Below are positions 23,281-35,063 of a stretch of DNA of 64,000 nucleotides, piece after piece. Source of the stretch: Mesorhizobium sp. L-2-11 (GTDB lineage Bacteria; Pseudomonadota; Alphaproteobacteria; Rhizobiales; Rhizobiaceae). The stretch's first letter is position 1. Each line of letters begins with the position of its first letter. The position numbers and the translations under genes were made by a program. The DNA lies in assembly GCF_016756595.1 (NCBI RefSeq), contig NZ_AP023257.1, positions 930,001-994,000 on the forward strand. The letters run 5' to 3'. The notes under the pieces were generated by a model that searched no databases, was not told the DNA's origin, and saw only the letters and a list, made by a program, of their open reading frames with translations.

Positions 23281-24669
23281 ATGGTTCCTCAAAACAGCCT
23301 CCCGGTCGCCATCATCGGCGGCGGACCTGTCGGTCTGGCGGCGGCCGCACAACTTGTCAGCCGCGGCCTTCCGGTCAAGGTTTACGAGGCAGGTTCCGCG
23401 GTTGGGTCGAACCTTCTGGATTGGGGCCATGTGCGGGTCTTCACGCCGTGGCGCTATTGCGTCGATGCGGTCGCCCGAAAACTTCTCGAGAGCCATGGCT
23501 GGCGAATGCCGGAGCCGGAGGCTTTCCCTACGGCCGATGAGATCGTCGCCCAGTATCTCGCGCCGCTGGCAAAGCTTGCCGAACTGGCGCCGTCGATCGA
23601 GACCAATGCCCGCGTTGTGGCTATTTCCCGCTGGGGAGCCGATAAGGTTTTGAGCAAGGGGCGGGAGACGCGGCCGTTCATGCTTCTGGTCGAAACGGCG
23701 GAAGGCACGCGGCGGGACAGCGCCCGTGCCGTCATCGACGCCTCCGGCACCTGGCAAACGCCGAACCCGCTCGGTGCGGGCGGCTTGTCGGCCGAAGGTG
23801 AAACGGAATTTGGCGATCGCATCGCCTACGGCATACCAAATATCCTGGGACGCGACCGTCATCTCTATGCAGGCCGCACGACATTGGTGGTTGGCGCCGG
23901 CCATTCCGCCGCCACCGCCCTGCTGGAACTGGACCGGCTCGCGCAAACCGAACCCGGCACCTCGGCACTATGGGTGACGCGCAGCACCGACCTTGTCCGC
24001 ATCTACGGCGGCGGCGATGCCGACGCCCTGCCGGCGCGCGGCGAGCTTGGTTCCGATGTCCGGCAGCTCGCCGAGAGCGGCCGCGTGCGGCTGGTGACAG
24101 GCTTTGCCACGCTTGCCATCCGCGAGGTCGACGGCCGTCTCGTGGTGGAAGGGCAGACCAAGGACGGATTGCGTACGCTCGGCCCCGTCGACCGGATCGT
24201 CGCCGCGACGGGGCAGCGCCCCGATCTCAGCTTGACCCGGGAGCTTCGGCTGGACCTCGATCCGTGGCTCGAAGGCGTCAAGGCGCTGGGGCCGCTGATC
24301 GACCCAAATGAGCATTCCTGCGGCGACGTCCCGCCACATGGTCACCGCGAGCTCAGCCACCCCGAGCCCGATTTCTACACGGTCGGCGTCAAAAGCTATG
24401 GCCGGGCGCCGACCTTCCTGCTGCTGACCGGCTATGAACAGGTCCGCTCGGTCGCCGCGGCGCTCGCCGGCGACATGGCTGCTGCCGATGCCGTGCAGCT
24501 GGTGTTGCCCGAGACCGGCGTCTGCACGGTGCCGGTGTCCGCGTTCGGAACCTTATCCGAAGGCTGCTGCGGCGGACCGGCGCCGGCTGCTGTCGATGCC
24601 TGCTGTGTCGACGACGCCAAGGCAAAGGCGAGCGGCAAGAGCGGCTGCGGCTGCAGCGTCGCGGCATGA
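23281..24669 (+). CDS. FAD/NAD(P)-dependent oxidoreductase with a cysteine-rich tail (arsenic cluster)
   Basis: A 462-residue flavoprotein. Residues 10-20 carry the dinucleotide-binding GGGPVGLAAAA; a second Rossmann motif VVGAGHSAATA lies near 202, as in class B flavin monooxygenases and thioredoxin-reductase-like proteins. The last 40 residues contain EGCCGGP, DACCVDD and GCGCS, a cysteine-rich end suited to binding As(III) or antimonite. Related flavoproteins are frequent in ars operons but their reaction is not settled. Start ATG 23281 after AGAAGG; overlaps the MFS gene (ATGA), suggesting joint function. Confidence 0.85.
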   Translation: MVPQNSLPVAIIGGGPVGLAAAAQLVSRGLPVKVYEAGSAVGSNLLDWGHVRVFTPWRYCVDAVARKLLESHGWRMPEPEAFPTADEIVAQYLAPLAKLAELAPSIETNARVVAISRWGADKVLSKGRETRPFMLLVETAEGTRRDSARAVIDASGTWQTPNPLGAGGLSAEGETEFGDRIAYGIPNILGRDRHLYAGRTTLVVGAGHSAATALLELDRLAQTEPGTSALWVTRSTDLVRIYGGGDADALPARGELGSDVRQLAESGRVRLVTGFATLAIREVDGRLVVEGQTKDGLRTLGPVDRIVAATGQRPDLSLTRELRLDLDPWLEGVKALGPLIDPNEHSCGDVPPHGHRELSHPEPDFYTVGVKSYGRAPTFLLLTGYEQVRSVAAALAGDMAAADAVQLVLPETGVCTVPVSAFGTLSEGCCGGPAPAAVDACCVDDAKAKASGKSGCGCSVAA

Positions 24670-25892
24670 GCCTTTCCCCGCCTACGGCGTCCGGAGCGCC
24701 CAGTCGCAGCACGATCATCGCTGCGCTTGGCATGACGCAGATCATGGCGTGGGGGTCTTCGTACTATCTCCCGGCCGTGATTGCGCCGGCCGTAGTGGCC
24801 GACACGGGTTGGCCTCTGGCATGGGTTGTCGGAGGCCTATCCCTTGGCCTGCTCGTCGGCGGGTTGATTTCTCCACGCGTGGGTAGCTCGATCGAACGAC
24901 ATGGCGGCCGGAATGTGCTGGCCTTCAGCGCCGCGTGCATCGGGACTGGCCAGATCGGACTGGCGATTGCTCCAAGTTTAGCGGTCTACATCATTGCCTG
25001 GCTTATTATCGGCCTTGGGATGGGGGCGGGGCTCTACGATGCCGCTTTTGCAACCCTGGGCCGGCTCTATGGCCATGGCGCGCGCTCTGCCATCACCACG
25101 CTCACTCTGTTCGGCGGCTTCGCGAGCACGGTTTGCTGGCCGCTCTCTGCTTTTTTGATGGGCGAGATCGGATGGCGAGGGGCATGTCTGGGCTATGCCG
25201 CCGTGCAATTGCTGGTCGCTCTGCCGCTGTATCTCCTTATCCTGCCGCGGGGCGTCGCCCGGCCCGCCAGCCAGTCCGATCAGAAGTCGGTCGTGGCTCC
25301 CGCGCCGGTGACGAGGTCGACGCCGGTTATGGTCATCCTGGCGGCGACCATAACGCTCGCAGCGGTCATTTCTTCGACCCTCTCCGTCCACCTTCTGACT
25401 GTCCTCCAGTCGACTGGCATGGCGCTGGCCGCCGCGGTGGGACTGGGCGCGCTTGTCGGTCCGTCGCAGGTCGGCGCTCGCGCAATCGAGATGGTCGTTG
25501 CCCGCTATCACCACCCGATATGGACCAAGGTCGTATCGGTCGGATGCGTCGCGATCGGGGTGTCGGCTCTCTGGATGGGAATGCCGATCGTCCCGTTGGC
25601 CCTGGCGTTTTACGGTGCCGGCATCGGCCTGGAATCAATTGCCCGAGGGACGTTGCCACTGGCCCTGTTCGGCGACTCCGGCTACGCCAGGCTTATGGGG
25701 CGCCTGGCCATGCCAAGCCTGATTGCTCAAGCAGCCGCCCCTTCCGTGGGCGCGCTGCTGGTCGAACAGCTCGGTGCGCATTGCATGCTTGCCGTCCTGT
25801 CGGCACTTGCCGTGATCAATGTGGTGCTGGTCGGCACGCTCACGCTGCTGCTTTTCCGGCCTCGATCTACGGGAATAGAGTCTGTTCCTTGA
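24666..25892 (+). CDS. MFS transporter, probable arsenical/antimonial efflux
   Basis: A 408-residue 12-helix major-facilitator protein. Helix 1 includes GMTQIMAWGSSYYLP and the loop 2-3 region is GGLISPRVGSSIERHGGR. Its start overlaps the Cys-tailed flavoprotein stop by four bases, and both lie behind an ArsR gene, so export of arsenite, antimonite or an oxidised arsenical is the likely role. ArsK and ArsJ are MFS arsenic exporters, but I cannot say which, if either, this is. Confidence 0.8.
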   Translation: MSLSPPTASGAPSRSTIIAALGMTQIMAWGSSYYLPAVIAPAVVADTGWPLAWVVGGLSLGLLVGGLISPRVGSSIERHGGRNVLAFSAACIGTGQIGLAIAPSLAVYIIAWLIIGLGMGAGLYDAAFATLGRLYGHGARSAITTLTLFGGFASTVCWPLSAFLMGEIGWRGACLGYAAVQLLVALPLYLLILPRGVARPASQSDQKSVVAPAPVTRSTPVMVILAATITLAAVISSTLSVHLLTVLQSTGMALAAAVGLGALVGPSQVGARAIEMVVARYHHPIWTKVVSVGCVAIGVSALWMGMPIVPLALAFYGAGIGLESIARGTLPLALFGDSGYARLMGRLAMPSLIAQAAAPSVGALLVEQLGAHCMLAVLSALAVINVVLVGTLTLLLFRPRSTGIESVP

Positions 25893-26165
25893 TCGCGCAC
25901 CGCGCTCGGCGGCCGGCCATGCGAAAGATGTGAGAGCTTGCGAGGTGGTGTCGCCGATCTTCATTCGCCGTGATCGCCCGCCCTAGCCTCGCTTGAGCTC
26001 TGGCGCCAGAACATCGTCGTGAGCTGGTCGGGATGCGTCCGATGTTTGCGCTCCATCGGGGCGGGCAGCGTTCGTCCAGCTGTGCGCAACACCGAGCCGC
26101 CGGCCATCGGCGCTCGACGGGCTGTGATGCGGTTGATAAGCCCTCTCCTCAAGGAGAGTCGAGAC

Positions 26166-27665
26166 ATGACCGTTGCGATCGAGATGGGCCACACGAGCGC
26201 AGGCGCGCCGGCGGCACTGGACCTTGAGGAGCTGCTGGCGACGCGCCTTTTGGTGCAGGGCAATTCGGGCTCGGGCAAATCGCATCTGCTGCGCCGCCTG
26301 CTCGAGCAGAGTGCGCCCTGGGTGCAGCAGACCATTATCGACCCGGAAGGCGATTTCGTCTCGCTCGGCGACCGTTTCGGCCATCTGGTGATCGATGCCG
26401 AGGAGCATACCGAGCGCGGCCTGCAGAGCGCCGGCGAGCGCGCGCGCATCCATCGCGTCTCCACGGTGCTCAATCTCGAAGGGCTCGACGCCGAGAACCA
26501 GATGCGGCGCGCCGCCGCCTTCCTCGGCGGGCTTTTCGAAGTCGCCCGCGACCATTGGTACCCGATGCTGGTGGTGGTGGACGAGGCGCAGCTGTTCGCG
26601 CCGGCCGTTGCGGGTGAAGTTTCGGACGAGGCGCGCAAGCTCTCTCTCGGCGCCATGACCAATTTGATGTGCCGTGGCCGCAAACGTGGGCTGGCCGGGA
26701 TCATCGCCACCCAACGGCTGGCCAAGCTTGCCAAGAACGTCGCCGCCGAGGCTTCCAATTTCCTCATGGGCCGAACCTTTCTCGATATCGACATGGCGCG
26801 CGCCGCCGACCTTCTGGGCATGGAGCGGCGACAGGCGGAGGCTTTTCGCGACCTGGAGCGCGGGCAGTTCATGGCACTGGGCCCGGCGCTGTCGCGCCGT
26901 CCGCTGGGCTTGCGCATTGGCCCGACCGACACAAGTCCGCGCAATGGAACGCCGCGGCTGATGCCGCTGCCGGAAGCGGCACTGGAGGACGCGCGCGCCA
27001 TCATCCTGGCAGCCCCGCCGCCGGAAACTGTCCGGCCGCAGCGCCGGTCGTCGCCGGACCTGCTCGATCAGCTGATGGCAGCAAAGTCGGCGGCGCTGGA
27101 AATCCGCCCCGAAGCGGCGGCGCCGCCAATCAGCGCCGAGGACCTGGCGGAGCGGCGTGAGCGGGTGGACCGCGTCCTGCGCGCCGTGCTGGCGCAGCCC
27201 GACGCGGGGTTCCGTGTCATCGGCGTGCTTTATCAGGAGTTCGTGGTCCGCTGCCGGATCGAAGGCCTCGCCTCGGTCGTGCCGGACCTGCCCGCCTTCC
27301 GCCGCATGCTGACGCACGCCCGCGCCGGCCTCGGCTCCGACATGGCAGGCGATGACGCGTGGCAGGATGTCTCGGCCCGCGCCTCGCTGCTGCCCGAGGA
27401 TATGCAGGGCGTGTTCATGATGATCGCCCGCGCGGCGAAGGAGGGCTGGCCCTGCCCGAGCGACGCGGCGATCGCCCGCGCCTATGGCTCGCACTCGCTG
27501 CGCCGCGCCCGGCGCCTGCTGACCTATATCGAGGAGCAGGGCCTCATCGTCTGCCAGCTTGACGGGCTTGGCCGGCGGATCGTGACGCTGGTCGAACTGG
27601 CCTGGGCAACGGCACCGGGCGATCCGAATGCCGAGCAGGCAGAGCAGGGGCGTTTGGCGGTGTGA
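26166..27665 (+). CDS. HerA/DUF87-like ATP-binding protein with a C-terminal winged helix
   Basis: A 499-residue P-loop ATPase. Walker A is GNSGSGKSHL (about residues 33-42) and Walker B is MLVVVDEAQLF (about 136-146). CRGRKRGLAGIIATQRLAKL near 175 fits the HerA/FtsK-like fold. The last 90 residues look like a winged helix (PSDAAIARAYGSHSLRRARR). Such ATPases act on DNA or load nucleases. The ATG at 26166 has AAGGAG upstream. A second, decayed copy of its 3' end is at 29594-29872. Confidence 0.8.
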   Translation: MTVAIEMGHTSAGAPAALDLEELLATRLLVQGNSGSGKSHLLRRLLEQSAPWVQQTIIDPEGDFVSLGDRFGHLVIDAEEHTERGLQSAGERARIHRVSTVLNLEGLDAENQMRRAAAFLGGLFEVARDHWYPMLVVVDEAQLFAPAVAGEVSDEARKLSLGAMTNLMCRGRKRGLAGIIATQRLAKLAKNVAAEASNFLMGRTFLDIDMARAADLLGMERRQAEAFRDLERGQFMALGPALSRRPLGLRIGPTDTSPRNGTPRLMPLPEAALEDARAIILAAPPPETVRPQRRSSPDLLDQLMAAKSAALEIRPEAAAPPISAEDLAERRERVDRVLRAVLAQPDAGFRVIGVLYQEFVVRCRIEGLASVVPDLPAFRRMLTHARAGLGSDMAGDDAWQDVSARASLLPEDMQGVFMMIARAAKEGWPCPSDAAIARAYGSHSLRRARRLLTYIEEQGLIVCQLDGLGRRIVTLVELAWATAPGDPNAEQAEQGRLAV

Positions 27666-28107
27666 GGCGGCGGCCGAGCGCGCAAGGGGAATGCAACGCA
27701 TCAAGGCGATGTATGGCTAGCGGCAGGTACAGCGTCGAGTCTTTTTTGCGCAGATAGGGCCTCGCTGGCCCGTCTTCATCATACGACGACGATTGGCGCG
27801 ACGACGATCCGCCTATTGTAAGGTGTTCGATGCTATAGCGCTCCCTCCTGCCGACGGCGCTTTACATATCTTGTAAATTACCCGCGGGTCGGTTTTCTAA
27901 TGAAGAGATCAGCCACGATCAACTGACGAAGGACAAGAAATACGGCAGGACTGTAGCGCAAATAGCCGCCGAAACTACGCTACCGCCGCCGATTACCCCT
28001 TCGGTTCGTTCTGTTGACATCTCCTGCTTCTCGAGAGATGGTAAGATACTACGCGGCGGCCCTTTTTCCGAAGATTTTATTCTTCAGCTTATCAAAGGAT
28101 TTTGGCA
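27666..28107. other. Intergenic region with one symmetrical site and no gene
   Basis: No supported gene lies in these 442 bases. The region is more AT-rich towards its right side. TTTACA-N5-TGTAAA at 27861-27877 is a perfect 6-5-6 dyad that could bind a regulator. A TTGACA at 28014 has no -10 at a normal distance. Confidence 0.4.
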
Positions 28108-29259
28108 ATGCGTTTGTCTCGATCGCGCCGACTTATGGCCGTCGCTTTGACGGCAATCGCAGCCGTTCCCTCTTATGGACATGCCGAGGACAAGCTGCTG
28201 ACGGAAGCGGTGCAGTTCAACGGTACGATCCTGTATCTCTCCACCAAGGTGCCTGGCCTGATCTTCGGCGCCGTGCGCAACGGCGAGACGGCCTTGGCCG
28301 GTTTCGGCAAGATTGCCGACGGGAGTGAAAAAGTGCCCGACGGCGACACAATGTTCCGCATCGCGTCCGTGAGCAAAGTGTTCTGCGGCAGCGTGCTTTC
28401 CTCGCTGGCGATCGACGGCAAGGTACAGCTCACCGACCGGCTGCAGGATCGCCTTGGCTGGGACGTCACGCTCCCTGAGAAGGATGGCCGCGCCCTCCGC
28501 CTGATCGATCTCGTCGCGCAAGCTTCCGGCCTTCCGCGGGAGGTGCCAGTGGCCGAGGCGCCCCCCTCCGACCCCTTCTCTACGAACACCAAGGAGGCGC
28601 AGATTGCCGCCCTCAAGGACAATCCGCTGCTCTTCGCGCCGGGCACCGCCGTTCTCTATTCGAACTTCGGATACGACCTCCTTGGAGCGGCGCTCGCGAA
28701 TGTCTCTGGAAAGCCCTATGCCGAGCTCCTTCGGGAGCGTGTCCTCGATCCCCTCGGCATGAAAGACACGGTTTTCAACCCAAGACCGGAGGACGAGCCG
28801 CGCCTGATGCAGGGCCATAACTTCGACGGCGGTGCCATGCCCATCGTGCCGACGAGCACAGCCATCGAGTGCGCCGGTGGATTGTACTCGACGGCGAACG
28901 ACCTGCTGCGCTGGATGAACTGGCATGTCGACAAGGAGCCTTCCGCGGCCGACGCCGAGTTCCGCCTTTTGAACCACGCGGCTTTTTTGTACCGGGACGG
29001 GCTCGCGTCGGTGGTGGGGCTGGATGATGGCGGCCCGATGGACGCCATGGGTCTCGGATGGGTCATCATGCTCCCCAACGAGCATCGCCCGCTCATCCTC
29101 CAGAAGAGCGGCGGCCTGCAAGGGATGTTTCTCTATGTTGCGATTGCACCGACACGCGGCGTCGGCGCTTTCTTTGTCATGAGCGAATTCAATGCCGCCG
29201 GCTTCATGGCTGGGGTCAAGACGACGAACGATCTCGTCGCAGAGATCGCTCCACGCTAA
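28108..29259 (+). CDS. Exported serine hydrolase, class C beta-lactamase family
   Basis: A 383-residue protein with a signal peptide (MRLSRSRRLMAVALTAIAAV, cleavage near GHA). The SVSK tetrad near residue 89 supplies the catalytic Ser and Lys, and YSN near 182 supplies the general base motif, as in AmpC, EstB and penicillin-binding serine hydrolases. A late HxG-like KSG motif (KSGG) is visible near residue 335. It could be a beta-lactamase, an esterase or a peptidase. The ATG at 28108 is preferred over TTG 28102. It sits between the ATPase gene and its decayed copy. Confidence 0.8.
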   Translation: MRLSRSRRLMAVALTAIAAVPSYGHAEDKLLTEAVQFNGTILYLSTKVPGLIFGAVRNGETALAGFGKIADGSEKVPDGDTMFRIASVSKVFCGSVLSSLAIDGKVQLTDRLQDRLGWDVTLPEKDGRALRLIDLVAQASGLPREVPVAEAPPSDPFSTNTKEAQIAALKDNPLLFAPGTAVLYSNFGYDLLGAALANVSGKPYAELLRERVLDPLGMKDTVFNPRPEDEPRLMQGHNFDGGAMPIVPTSTAIECAGGLYSTANDLLRWMNWHVDKEPSAADAEFRLLNHAAFLYRDGLASVVGLDDGGPMDAMGLGWVIMLPNEHRPLILQKSGGLQGMFLYVAIAPTRGVGAFFVMSEFNAAGFMAGVKTTNDLVAEIAPR

Positions 29260-29439
29260 TTTCCGCGCTGATCGGGGGGAACGTGCGCGATGATTAGCGC
29301 TGTGGAGGGGCCTGACGGACGGCATGTTTCGTGGCAAGGCAAGCGCGACATCGGTTATTTCCGGCCGACCGCTTAGCTACCCCCCTGAGGACGACCTTTG
29401 CCGGCGCGCCGACCCGCTTCATCGCTGCTCACGGCCTGC

Positions 29440-29600
29440 TCAAGCGGTGGCCAAGGTTCTGCCTCTTGCCTCTTTGGCATTCCGAACAGGCGCCCGGCCG
29501 AACAGACGACGATATTCCCGGGTGAACTGCGACACGCTTTCGTAGCCGATCGCGAACGCCGCGCTGCTCGCAGTCTTTCCCTCCGACAGCATCAGCCGCC
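29440..29600 (-). pseudogene. AraC-family regulator, C-terminal remnant
   Basis: On the minus strand the frame from about 29600 down to the stop at 29440 encodes an AraC DNA-binding end: RRRLMLSEGKTASSAAFAIG followed by YESVSQFTREYRRLFGRAP. The frame upstream is cut where it runs into the antisense of the ATPase fragment near 29595-29600, so only the second helix-turn-helix remains. No intact regulator is near. Confidence 0.75.
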
Positions 29601-29872
29601 TCCTGGCGCAGCCCGACGCGGGGTTCCGTGTCATCGGCGTGCCCGCGCCGCGAAGGAGGGCTGGCCCTGCCCGAGCGACGCGGCGATCGCCCGCGCCTAT
29701 GGCTCACACTCGCTGCCCCGCGCCCGGCGCCTGCTGACCTATATCGAGGAGCAGGGGATGATCGTCTGCCAGCTCGACGGGACTGGACGGCGGACGGTGA
29801 CGCTGGTGGAACTCGCCTGGGCGACGGCGCCGGCGGATCCGCAGGGGCCGAGCAGGGGAGCTTGGCGGTGTG
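29594..29872 (+). pseudogene. Decayed second copy of the HerA/DUF87-like ATPase C-terminus
   Basis: Bases about 29600-29640 match the intact gene at about 27190-27228, then the match jumps to 27428-27657. Around 200 bases are therefore missing. The remaining frame encodes AAKEGWPCPSDAAIARAYGS and most of the winged helix, ending at TGA 29871-29873. Identity by eye is high but not total, with scattered changes, so this is a diverged paralogue remnant and not a fresh duplication. Its left end is fused to the AraC remnant. Confidence 0.75.
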
Positions 29873-30139
29873 ATGGGGTGGCAAGCGGCGTTGGCTATAG
29901 TTAAACGGCAGATGCAGCGGACAAGCCGGTTTCTGCCAGAAGCCGACGCGGGTTTGTGTCAGATTTCGAGCCCGAGCCGCCATGTGCAGCGTACGGAGTA
30001 GAGTTCCAGAGGCGTAGTATGCGAAACTTTGTTGCTTAGAGTCAGTATTCGAGATGGAATTGCTACTCTATAGGTATGACCTGATGATCGGCGATGCCTC
30101 AGATGATTCTGATTTCACGGCGCTACCAAGGGGTAGAAA

Positions 30140-32170
30140 TTGCGATTTGTCTCGGACGGTCCATCTATCCCCGATGACTTGCTATGGGCTCGGGATCAGG
30201 GTCGCGTAATATTCTTCTGCGGCGCCGGAGTTTCGCGAGCCCGTGCGAAGCTTCCCGACTTCTTTGGATTAGCCGAGAAAGTAATCTCGACCCTCGGCGT
30301 TTCAAAGGAGAGCCCTGCCTGCCGATTGATTGAGGAAGCACGCCAAATCGATGATCGTGTCGGTGTTGCGGGAGTAATATCTGCCGACAGGGTATTTGGC
30401 TTGTTGGAACGCGAGTTCTTGTCGCGAGATATCGAAGCCGCTGTGGCCGGCGCTTTAAAGCCGGAGGCGCCGTGCGACGTGAGTGCCCACAAAGTCTTGC
30501 TGGACTTGGCGACCGGTCCAGATGGTACGGTTCGTATCGTAACGACTAACTTCGACCGGTTGTTCGATGAATGCAGCCGTCAACTTCAGACGTGGCAACC
30601 GCCGCGTTTACCTGACCCTCGAAGACCGGCCGAGCTAACGGGGATCGTCTACCTGCATGGCAGGGTCACGCCAAACTATGATGGTGCAGAAGGCGATGGG
30701 TTTGTGCTTTCAAGTTCGGAGTTCGGTAAGGCGTATTTAGCAGATGGCTGGGCAACTGATTTCTTCAGGGCGATTCTAGGGAAATTCGTAGTCGTTTTCG
30801 TTGGCTACACAGCGGACGACCCCCCAGTCCAATATTTGCTCGAAGCGCTGACCAAGGCGTCTGGTCGTATTGAAAACGTCTACGCCTTCCAATCTGGTGA
30901 CGAGAGCGACGCCACGGCCCGGTGGCGACATAAGGGTGTTAATGCGATCGCCTACGACCCGGCGAATAGTCATACGGCTTTGTGGGCAACATTGGAGGCC
31001 TGGTCTGCTAGGGCACGAAATATAGATGGCTGGTACAACGATGTGATTGACTTGGCGCAGCGAGGCCCTGAACCGATGATGCCTCATGAACGGGGACAGG
31101 TAGCTCACATTGTCTCGTCCTACGAAGGTGCTAAGCGTTTCACCGAAGCAGCGTCGCCACCTCCGGCAAACTGGCTGTGTGTTTTCGATCCCTATCGACG
31201 CTACGAACGACCGGGACATTTGGGTACGATGTTAGAGAGGGGAGACTACGTCGATCCGTTCGACCTGTACTGTTTGGATTCCGACGTTGCTCCGGCCAAA
31301 CCTAATCCCGAAGATCACTATGCGCGACGAGACGTGCCGAATGAGGCTTGGGACGCCTTCTCTATCAATCGCTTAGATCGCCAGGCGCTCAACGACGAGA
31401 ACGTCATTGCTCTGCGGGGACACTGGGCAAGAAACGCACCGCGCCTGGTACTTCGCATCTTTCAGTTGGCTGGCTGGCTAACACGGGTATCGGATCAGCC
31501 GGCTGCGGTCTGGTGGGCCGCCCATCAGTCTGCCCTCCATCCCGATATTCGCGACCGTATCCGCTGGCGGTTGGAGCGGGCGGACGAGGCGTCGGCGCCC
31601 GAAATCCGAAAGGCCTGGAGGTTCCTATTCGAAAGCTGGGATTCCTATCGTGGAGAATTTCACAGGGGCATTTATGAGTTAGCGGCTCAGGTAGCCAAGG
31701 ATGGCTGGGACGATACCGCCGTCAGGCAATATGCGGCGATAAGGAAGCCCTATTTCTCTGCCGGAAACGCCTATTGGGGAGGGCCAAAGCCACCAGACGA
31801 CGGTGCAGAAATTCGTCTTGGCAATCTAATTCGGCTCGACGTCAAGTATCCAGAAAGGCACGATCCTATTAACATCCCCGATGGCTGGCTGTCACAAACT
31901 GTAAAAGCGCTCCGCCTGAATTTGGAATTAGCCGTTGCTTTAGAGAATGAAATTGGCGGCTATGGCTTGCTTTCAATCAGCCCAATTGTTGCTGACGAAA
32001 CTGTGGGTGATGATCAGTACGAGCGCAGTCATGGGCTTTCTGCCCATGTGATCGAGTATGTTGTAATTTTGAAACGGCTAGTAGCCCTCGATCCAAGTGC
32101 AGCAAAATCTGAACTGAGCGCATGGCCTATTGGAGACGCGGTATTCAATCGCTCCGGATTTGGGCGCTAG
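30140..32170 (+). CDS. SIR2-like NAD-binding protein, amino-terminal part of a split gene
   Basis: A 676-residue frame with a SIR2-like domain at about residues 20-280: GAGVS at 28-32, TTNFD at 135-139, YLHG at 171-174, and GYTADDPPV at 222-230. This set is typical of defence-associated SIR2 proteins that consume NAD+ during phage infection. The rest is a large uncharacterised region. The start is TTG 30140 with AAGGGG upstream; an in-frame TAG two codons before it rules out anything longer. The frame ends at TAG 32168-32170, where a probable 1-nt deletion (32148-32153) removes continuity with the next frame; together they would make about 1,280 residues, as in SIR2-DUF4020 proteins. Its codon usage is AT-richer than that of its neighbours. 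Confidence 0.8.
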   Translation: MRFVSDGPSIPDDLLWARDQGRVIFFCGAGVSRARAKLPDFFGLAEKVISTLGVSKESPACRLIEEARQIDDRVGVAGVISADRVFGLLEREFLSRDIEAAVAGALKPEAPCDVSAHKVLLDLATGPDGTVRIVTTNFDRLFDECSRQLQTWQPPRLPDPRRPAELTGIVYLHGRVTPNYDGAEGDGFVLSSSEFGKAYLADGWATDFFRAILGKFVVVFVGYTADDPPVQYLLEALTKASGRIENVYAFQSGDESDATARWRHKGVNAIAYDPANSHTALWATLEAWSARARNIDGWYNDVIDLAQRGPEPMMPHERGQVAHIVSSYEGAKRFTEAASPPPANWLCVFDPYRRYERPGHLGTMLERGDYVDPFDLYCLDSDVAPAKPNPEDHYARRDVPNEAWDAFSINRLDRQALNDENVIALRGHWARNAPRLVLRIFQLAGWLTRVSDQPAAVWWAAHQSALHPDIRDRIRWRLERADEASAPEIRKAWRFLFESWDSYRGEFHRGIYELAAQVAKDGWDDTAVRQYAAIRKPYFSAGNAYWGGPKPPDDGAEIRLGNLIRLDVKYPERHDPINIPDGWLSQTVKALRLNLELAVALENEIGGYGLLSISPIVADETVGDDQYERSHGLSAHVIEYVVILKRLVALDPSAAKSELSAWPIGDAVFNRSGFGR

Positions 32171-33975
32171 GCGACGAGAACTTGCTTCCCGAGAGCGAAT
32201 TCACGAAAGAGTTGCAACGCTTGAGCGATGACTCTTTTTGGGGTTCCCGCGACCAGAGAGACCTTCTCCTTTCTCTCAAAGGCCGATGGAACGGCCTTAA
32301 GGCAGAGACGAGGCAAGCTATTGAGGAAAGGCTCGTCCGAGGTCCTTCACGCTGGAAGGATGAAGAAGAGGATCACTTTAAAGAGAGATCTGCCTTTGAT
32401 GTTCTGAATCGCCTCCATTGGTTCCGCGATCAAGGATGCCTTCTGACGATTGATTTGCAAACTCTTTCTGAGCAACTTCAGCCACTCGCTCCGAAATGGA
32501 AAACAGAATATTCCAAATCGGCGGCAGCTTCGTTGGAGGGGCGCGTTGGCTGGGTGAGAACAGAAAAAGACTTCTCGGCTTTGCTCGCGCTGCCACTATC
32601 GGGAGTCATATCGAAAGCTAGAGAAATAAGTGGACGCGACGACGCATTCGTAGAAAACGCGCCATTCTCCGGACTGGTCGAAGAGAAGCCGGTTAGAGCA
32701 CTGGCGGCTTTGCACTTCGCCGCTAAAGGTGGAGAGTTCCCCGAATGGGCATGGCGTGCGTTCCTAGGCTCGGATGCCCGGAAAAATGACGACCCTAAAC
32801 TCATTTGGCTGACGGCCAAGCGGCTTCTGTCTTATCGACGACAAGATATTTCTGAGCTGATTTACTCGTTGTCGGAGTGGGTTTTAAAAGTCGCAAAGAC
32901 CCTTTCCAGAAATCATGAGGCAGTCTTCTACGAAATAGTGACCAGAATTGCTGACATCATTGGCTCCGATCCCCGCGCAGGCGCTTCGGCGATTATACGA
33001 GGGACCGGAAGTCGTGATTGGGCGACAGAGGCACTGAATTCGCCAGCCGGCAAGATTTCTCAAGCCCTTTTTAATACTCCTTCGACGGAGGGAGTGAAGA
33101 AAGGAAAAGGCCTTTCAGAGAATTGGCTTAGCCAAGTCAATCGACTTCTGCTTGTCCAAGGGGAGCCGCGATGCCATTCGCTCGTGATCTTCTGTCACAA
33201 TCTCCTATGGTTCGATTTCGTTGATCCTGAATGGACGCGGAAGCACCTTATCGCCGCCCTGAAAAACGATGACATAGACGACAGAGATGCGGCTTGGGCG
33301 GGCTTCTTTTGGGCTGCGAAGATTCCGCATCCGACACTTTATCGGGTGTTGAAAGATGATCTCCTTGCTATCGCTAAGAGTGACACGCTTTCCAAGCGCT
33401 CACATGAGCAGGTTTTGGCCGGCATTCTTTTATCCGGCTGGGCCAATGTTGATCCCGCTGAGGGCAAGGCGTGCGTTTCCGACGATGAAATGCGCGATCT
33501 GCTACTCAAATCGGACGACGAATTTAGGTCTCATGTTCTGTGGCAGGCCGAGCGGTGGTCCGAAGCAAAGAAGGAGGCAACAGGAGTTAGTTGGTCCGAT
33601 GAAATAGAGAGGCTGCTTGAACATGTGTGGCCGCGGCAAATTGCGGCAAAGTCCCCCCGCATCTCTGCGCGCCTCTGCAACTTTGCTTTTTCCAGCAAAG
33701 ACCGCTTTGTTAAAAGAGCCAACATCGTTCTTCCGCTGTTGAGCAAGGCGGAAGGCGATTCAGTCAGGATGCCGAACCTTAGAAAATCGAAGGACAACAT
33801 CGTAGATATCTATCCCGAACAGACACTCGCAATTCTTGATGTAATCCTTCCAGAGAATGCTGCGGCTTGGCCCTATGGGATCGAGAGCACTATTGACCGC
33901 ATTGGAAAAGGAGACAGTCGCTTGAGCAATGATCCCAGGCTCCTTTCCTTGAAGCGTCGGTGGGACGCGAGATGA
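32122..33975 (+). CDS. C-terminal part of the split SIR2 protein (DUF4020-like)
   Basis: A frame of up to 617 residues, whose true content begins near 32150 with LRIWALGDENLLPESEF, directly continuing the SIR2 frame (AVFNR...) if one C is restored. The ATG at 32122 is probably not a real start, since it lies in the antecedent frame's sequence. The protein is largely alpha-helical with no membrane segments and no nuclease motif seen. SIR2 proteins with a C-terminal DUF4020 are known by name; I recall the pairing but cannot confirm it here. It has the same low GC as the previous frame. Confidence 0.7.
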   Translation: MAYWRRGIQSLRIWALGDENLLPESEFTKELQRLSDDSFWGSRDQRDLLLSLKGRWNGLKAETRQAIEERLVRGPSRWKDEEEDHFKERSAFDVLNRLHWFRDQGCLLTIDLQTLSEQLQPLAPKWKTEYSKSAAASLEGRVGWVRTEKDFSALLALPLSGVISKAREISGRDDAFVENAPFSGLVEEKPVRALAALHFAAKGGEFPEWAWRAFLGSDARKNDDPKLIWLTAKRLLSYRRQDISELIYSLSEWVLKVAKTLSRNHEAVFYEIVTRIADIIGSDPRAGASAIIRGTGSRDWATEALNSPAGKISQALFNTPSTEGVKKGKGLSENWLSQVNRLLLVQGEPRCHSLVIFCHNLLWFDFVDPEWTRKHLIAALKNDDIDDRDAAWAGFFWAAKIPHPTLYRVLKDDLLAIAKSDTLSKRSHEQVLAGILLSGWANVDPAEGKACVSDDEMRDLLLKSDDEFRSHVLWQAERWSEAKKEATGVSWSDEIERLLEHVWPRQIAAKSPRISARLCNFAFSSKDRFVKRANIVLPLLSKAEGDSVRMPNLRKSKDNIVDIYPEQTLAILDVILPENAAAWPYGIESTIDRIGKGDSRLSNDPRLLSLKRRWDAR

Positions 33976-34082
33976 GTTCCAACAGCGACGCCGGAGCCGA
34001 TGTCGGCTTCTCGTAAACTCTAATCAGCGCAACAGGAGTCGGGTTAGATCCAAAACCAGCCATTCGCCTCGCCTCAGCGCCC

Positions 34083-35063
34083 CTAACGATCCTCAATAAT
34101 CCGCAAATACGCCGCCGTCACGAACAGCACGATCAGCCCAAACAATATCCGCCGCGCGCCTTCGGGCATCTGCAGGATGGTCAGCAGGGTCGTCAGCACG
34201 GTGAGAATGAGCGCCCCGATGATGGTGCCGGTGTAGCCGCCGCGGCCGCCGAAGATCGAGGTTCCGCCGATCACGGCGGCTGCCACCGAGGGCAGCACCA
34301 GCGGTTCGGCCAGCGACAGCGACGGCGCCTTGATCAGGCCGATATAGAGCAGCCCGGTGATGCCGGCGAGCACGCTCGAAATGACGTAGAGCGCTGTGAT
34401 GACCTGCCAGTAGCGGACGCCGGACAGGCGTGCCGCCCCCTCATTGTCGCCGACTGCGTAAAGAAGACGGCCAAAACCGGTGCGGTTCAAGGTGAAGACG
34501 ATGAGAACGGCCACCGGCACGAACAGCAGCAGCGCGTTGGGCACGCCATAGGTGAGACCGGTGCCCAGCCAGGCCAGGAAGGGCGGAATCTTGGCGCCCG
34601 AAGCGATGACGGTGCGCTGGTAAACCTGCAGGCATCCGGTGCCGATCAGGCTGGTGCCGAGCGTCATGATCAGCGGGTGCACGCGAAACACGCCGACGCC
34701 GATGCCGTTGACCAGGCCGATGAGCACTGCCGGCACCAAGGCGATGAGAATCGCCACCGCCGGGTCATGGTTGACCACCTGCGTCGCCATGATGAAGGCG
34801 CTCATCGTCGCCACGGTTCCGACCGACAGATCGATGCCGCCGGTCAGCATGGTCATGGTCTGGCAGCCGGCAAGAATTGCCAGCGGTATGGCGAATTTTA
34901 TGGTGTTGGCGAGCCACCGCTCGTTGACGATGCCGGGACGCAGGATCTGCAGCACCAGCACCAGGATGACGAGCAGGATGATCAGGGGAATCAGCGGCCG
35001 GTCGGCCATGAACCGCTTGAGGCGGCGGCCGAAGGGGGTAGGCTGGATCGCGGTAATGCTCAT
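34083..35063 (-). CDS. Sugar ABC transporter permease (RbsC type, second permease)
   Basis: A 326-residue BPD_transp_2 permease with about ten hydrophobic segments and the conserved LTGGIDLSVGTVATMSAFI near residue 74. It starts at ATG 35063 and is the last gene of the leftward operon. Repeat A2 (35109-35284) separates it from the first permease. It would form the inner-membrane pore for a monosaccharide or polyol. Confidence 0.9.
   Translation of the reverse strand: MSITAIQPTPFGRRLKRFMADRPLIPLIILLVILVLVLQILRPGIVNERWLANTIKFAIPLAILAGCQTMTMLTGGIDLSVGTVATMSAFIMATQVVNHDPAVAILIALVPAVLIGLVNGIGVGVFRVHPLIMTLGTSLIGTGCLQVYQRTVIASGAKIPPFLAWLGTGLTYGVPNALLLFVPVAVLIVFTLNRTGFGRLLYAVGDNEGAARLSGVRYWQVITALYVISSVLAGITGLLYIGLIKAPSLSLAEPLVLPSVAAAVIGGTSIFGGRGGYTGTIIGALILTVLTTLLTILQMPEGARRILFGLIVLFVTAAYLRIIEDR

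Follow-up and report, generated by a model that had tools for sequence, protein, structure and literature searches.

Organization of the SIR2 locus

The gene described here lies in a 64,000-nucleotide stretch of DNA from Mesorhizobium sp. L-2-11, a soil bacterium of a legume-symbiont genus (contig NZ_AP023257.1, positions 930,001 to 994,000), which is referred to as the window and whose numbering is used below. The source genome comprises 7.4 Mb in 5 contigs, and the window is located on the contig of 6.65 Mb. Positions 30140-33975 hold two overlapping open reading frames (ORFs), ORF1 and ORF2, which are the two halves of one SIR2 protein of ~1,275 residues. The features of the gene are as follows.

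30128..30133, + strand: Shine-Dalgarno-like AAGGGG, 6 nt upstream of the ORF1 TTG, read from the sequence
30140..32170, + strand: ORF1, 676 codons, TTG start; SIR2 NADase-type domain (~residues 1-296) and middle part of a Dsr1-like protein
30548..30550, + strand: codon of Asn137 (TTNFD motif), equivalent of the DSR2 catalytic N133
30656..30658, + strand: codon of His173 (YLHG motif), equivalent of the DSR2 catalytic H171
32122..32170, + strand: overlap of ORF1 and ORF2 (49 bases), the reading-frame break
32122..33975, + strand: ORF2, 617 codons, own ATG; all-helical HEAT/armadillo-like C-terminal half of the same protein

A preliminary description of this DNA had joined the two frames into one protein of about 1,280 residues, and comparison with an intact relative from Mesorhizobium sp. 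LMG 17147 (L070) confirms this. Residues 1-671 of the relative match the first frame with 63% identity and residues 672-1278 match the second frame with 47% identity, with the change of frame at position 32152. The homology of ORF2 starts at its LRIW residues; three of these (L, R, and W) are near-invariant in relatives. Out of at least 504 genome loci with homologues, 80 were kept for comparison, and the TTG start of ORF1 is supported because 16 of these 80 likewise have TTG at the conserved start. In the homologue from Rhizobium sp. BT04 (L021, 8001-8112) the start is annotated 37 codons downstream of the conserved TTG, so that the GAGVS motif is dropped; rare TTG starts may truncate further family members in databases.

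Assignment to the Dsr1 family

The SIR2-like domain that had been recognized from sequence motifs is matched in ORF1 by Pfam SIR2_2 with an E-value of 3.1e-15, the sole Pfam match at E up to 1; the same search of ORF2 returned no match. Both halves of the protein match Dsr1 (NF041818) in NCBIfam and PADLOC, with scores of 237 and 155 bits, and the best-matching stretches cover positions 1-356 and 674-1259 of the profile. The homology thus extends over the SIR2 half of the profile as well as its C-terminal half, which places the gene in the Dsr1 family in the wide sense, although it is encoded in two frames and not in the one open frame that marks this wider family. For six intact relatives of the window gene the scores are 336-434 bits, below the NF041818 equivalog cut-off of 1,400 bits, which a Mesorhizobium congener (G033) passes with 1,685 bits.

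The same separation is seen in a tree of 97 N-terminal pieces, which consist of 78 of the 80 loci, 8 plasmid rows, 10 rows from congeners and kin, and the window gene; two loci with short frames were left out. The tree was built by a quick method with SH-aLRT (Shimodaira-Hasegawa-like approximate likelihood ratio test) supports and a midpoint root, and contains several long branches. It places the window gene inside a clade of 13 rows (support 98), apart from the five-row group of G033 (support 99). The 13-row clade includes Mesorhizobium, Bartonella, Serratia, Billgrantia, Kaistia, and Pseudochrobactrum, a mix of taxa that suggests horizontal transfer. The window protein therefore resembles Dsr1 in its similar length (the profile has 1,263 positions) and its N-terminal SIR2 domain, and differs from it in that its clade is separate in the tree, its scores are far below the cut-off, and the window copy is frame-broken. 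Positions 30140-33975 are a Dsr1-like defence sirtuin gene, a kind of system that is already known. Among the matches listed by a literature search of mostly open-access papers, none was found on this Dsr1-like clade or on the Mesorhizobium site that it occupies here.

Two other identities were considered. The preliminary description had compared the protein to SIR2-DUF4020 proteins, and this likeness is rejected because DUF4020 was matched neither in either half of the window protein nor in any of 52 C-terminal halves; its defence-type character is retained, given the Dsr1 profile and a predicted fold like those of defence NADases, with Dsr1 as the named relative. For a metabolic sirtuin, the match to SIR2_2 and not to SIR2 (PF02146) speaks only weakly against it, because a table available from excerpts of PMC10952713 also lists defence sirtuins under PF02146.

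The SIR2 domain and the helical C-terminal half

Structure predictions covered the SIR2 part and the C-terminal half. The SIR2 part (~residues 1-296) is predicted to adopt a fold like that of the NADase domains of DSR2, ThsA, and KomC. The catalytic residues of DSR2 are named as N133 and H171 in excerpts of PMC10981675, and the corresponding Asn and His are both present in the window protein and invariant in 52 sequences. The C-terminal half is predicted to form an all-helical HEAT/armadillo-like superhelix, in agreement with the large helical C-terminus noted earlier, and its homology is with the corresponding half of the Dsr1 profile. DSR2 was absent among the 50 best matches of fold searches with the C-terminal half, which is no proof of a different fold. 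Conservation across relatives is highest in the SIR2 part and lower in the C-terminal part, as would be expected for a fixed effector combined with a diverging sensor. On the basis of the predicted model, a role of the helical C-terminal half as a phage sensor is plausible.

Another related system is DSR2 from Bacillus subtilis, which shares the SIR2 fold, the catalytic Asn and His, and the arrangement of an N-terminal effector with a large C-terminal part (excerpts of PMC10981675 and PMC10973363). DSR2 differs in having ~1,005 residues and in that sequence similarity is seen only in the SIR2 part. Thoeris ThsA, KomC, and the SIR2 proteins of AVAST type 5 differ in their sensor domains, and Thoeris has a partner gene (in part from excerpts of PMC10973363).

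Composition and distribution

The gene forms the low-GC island that the preliminary description had pointed out. Its guanine plus cytosine (GC) content is 0.537, whereas 301 sliding 3,836-base positions of the window average 0.633 (s.d. 0.025); a single position is lower (0.534, start 30001), and it overlaps the gene, while the lowest value without overlap is 0.608. The GC content at third codon positions (GC3) is 0.54-0.56, compared to a mean of 0.785 and a minimum of 0.60 in 37 further ORFs with 200 codons or more, which were picked by a simple rule and a few of which may be wrong frames. Synteny of homologues in all relatives had been named as an outcome that would speak against an acquired defence gene. 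The distribution is instead patchy: ORF1 matches (E up to 1e-10) were found in 16 of 146 genomes of the genus, including that of the window, and in none of the other 15 was the match near this site on the same contig, although a link between contigs is possible where assemblies are fragmented. A phage-borne gene was also considered and rejected, as ORF1 had no match at E 1e-5 in 50,697 phage records.

The insertion site and its cargo

The gene lies in a variable site between two conserved borders, with the following features.

26163..27665, + strand: gene of a HerA-like (DUF87) ATPase with a predicted start codon; left border of the variable site
29443..29634, - strand: ORF with a fragment of an AraC-type helix-turn-helix (HTH), antisense and fused to the ATPase copy (scar)
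29594..29882, + strand: internally shortened copy of an ATPase 3' piece (scar), source stretch 27189-27670
29920..34036, no strand assigned: insert for which the compared relatives have no similar DNA at this site, near single-gene insert
34083..35063, - strand: ABC (ATP-binding cassette)-type permease (BPD_transp_2) of a sugar-type transporter, right border of the variable site

Similarity to the site of relatives is lost at 29860-29919 left of the gene and returns at 34037-34082 right of it, varying by relative. Both limits are close to the gene, so the insert contains hardly anything else. The decayed gene scar that had been described on one side of the gene is present, as is the permease on the other side. 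The scar junctions are alike in five relatives (G181, G123, G184, G060, and G051), and a short second ATPase copy is found in G120; recombination between the arrangements of different strains would explain the scar.

The variable site spans 27666-34082. The interval between the ATPase stop and the permease stop could be sized in 96 of 146 genomes from listed matches on one contig and strand, with approximate ends and several partial permease matches, and ranges from 28 bp to 31.8 kb with a median of ~9.8 kb. The shortest intervals are those of G156 (28 bp), G114 (34 bp), and G059 (39 bp), and the row of G150 is an artefact of partial matches. An inner control, the interval that flanks the ATPase on its opposite side (24657 to 26073), measures 1.3-1.4 kb in the window, as it does in five relatives (L051, L054, L055, L056, and L058). 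The variable site also contains a beta-lactamase-family (PF00144) gene at 28102-29259, and DNA similar to this gene is found in the loci of eight relatives (L049, L050, L051, L053, L054, L056, L057, and L058).

Cargo was surveyed in 16 close relatives using 71 out of 114 ORFs with 110 residues or more, which were hand-picked mostly for length while avoiding repeats. PADLOC matches include models of a type II methyltransferase and restriction enzyme, a Pycsar cyclase, PD-T4-6, GajB, and AbiJ (among the best 25 of 92 families), and Pfam matches include cytochrome oxidase, beta-lactamase, and LysR and AraC regulators (among the best 25 of 72 families). In a scan of 10 cargo proteins, four had no PADLOC match and some matches look like generic domains. 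A pure defence hot spot is rejected because the cargo of this site is a mixture of defence-like and metabolic genes, and no enrichment for defence is claimed. Elsewhere, 12 annotated plasmid loci show varied neighbours. Shedu adjoins the gene in two near-identical Cupriavidus contexts, CBASS and AbiEii lie close to it on a plasmid of Rhizobium sp. L51/94, and the remaining nine have toxin-antitoxin, integrase, mobilisation, or ordinary genes, or nothing else annotated.

Frame integrity and alternative explanations

The gene is a single open frame of more than 1,200 codons in 69 of the 80 related loci; five others run off the contig and six stop early. Each of the 8 plasmid homologues is a single frame of 1,242-1,280 codons. 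Among the 75 relatives with a contig of sufficient length, the 6 early stops (L092, L102, L106, L129, L135, and L140) comprise four frame shifts elsewhere, one in-frame stop, and one lost end, and five of the six keep most of the remaining sequence. None of the six breaks at the position of the window copy. The window gene has one frame break, the sole lesion in ~1,275 codons, and is therefore most likely inactive or recently damaged, or it contains an assembly error. The window copy is probably no longer functional as one protein, and its present function is doubtful.

That the break is an assembly or sequencing error, with the gene intact and working in the strain, is considered rather unlikely. 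It would fit a lesion that is the only one in the gene, the alignment of both frames with intact relatives across nearly the whole length, and the rule that members are intact. However, the overlap contains no homopolymer longer than 3 bases, and an assembly of this contiguity is little informative on base accuracy. The early stops in relatives, most with the remainder largely kept, indicate that such damage also occurs in other copies, although these too may contain errors. A working split protein, in which both frames are translated and the halves reassemble, is very unlikely. ORF2 does have its own ATG within ORF1 and retains LRIW, with its three near-invariant residues, at its start, but a clear Shine-Dalgarno sequence is not seen upstream of this ATG (TGAACTGAGCGC), and the two-gene form is not conserved, because no broken relative shares the break position.

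Programmed frameshifting that joins ORF1 and ORF2 is extremely improbable and was rejected. The overlap contains a TTTGGGC heptamer (32159-32165), the only slippery-like heptamer noticed, but its phase does not suit a -1 slip from the frame of ORF1, and it comes after the homology frame change. A slip there would replace LRIW, and most relatives use a single frame. Breakage that recurs without a fixed site likewise speaks against a programmed event. Hardly any probability is given to a defence pair of the SIR2-HerA type with the HerA-like gene at 26163. This DUF87 gene ends 2.5 kb upstream of the SIR2 gene, but the pair was rejected because the two genes are inherited differently and not together as neighbours.

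Proposed mechanism and significance

The locus is best explained by a single Dsr1-like defence sirtuin gene (~1,275 residues) that would have been acquired horizontally, entered a Mesorhizobium chromosome at a variable site, and later been disrupted by one frame shift near 32150. Where the gene is intact, its product is most likely a single-protein phage sensor, in which the C-terminal helical superhelix would bind a phage protein and thereby release the N-terminal SIR2 domain, so that NAD+ is hydrolysed and the infection is stopped. This account as a whole is held with good confidence. It rests on the homology, the catalytic residues, the predicted folds, the foreign composition, the patchy distribution, and the frame break in the assembly; NADase activity, a sensor role, phage defence, and phage resistance are predicted for the clade, as is loss of function for the window copy. 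In DSR2 the C-terminal domain binds the monomeric phage tail tube protein, which frees the SIR2 NADase (excerpts of PMC10981675 and PMC10973363), and by analogy of anatomy the intact proteins of the clade should work likewise, possibly with a different trigger. DSR1 is said to inhibit phage without cell killing (Garb et al., as cited in excerpts of PMC10952713).

A wider proposal is put forward tentatively. The clade may be large, with its own HEAT-like sensor and its own phage trigger, and plasmids and chromosomal sites may have carried it across several phyla, with frame breaks that repeatedly inactivate its copies. Likewise, an undescribed hot spot of Mesorhizobium may lie between the genes of the HerA-like ATPase and the sugar-type permease, with cargo that includes defence genes and turnover by recombination between the conserved flanks.

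Loss of the window copy, which is probably dead, would be ordinary for a costly defence gene, and while the clade and the site merit a note, this copy in itself merits little more. Dsr1-like defence is extended to a broad clade in which the NADase residues are conserved and the C-terminal part is less so, a variable Mesorhizobium chromosomal site is identified where such genes come and go, and the clade supplies intact relatives that are suited to a search for the trigger.
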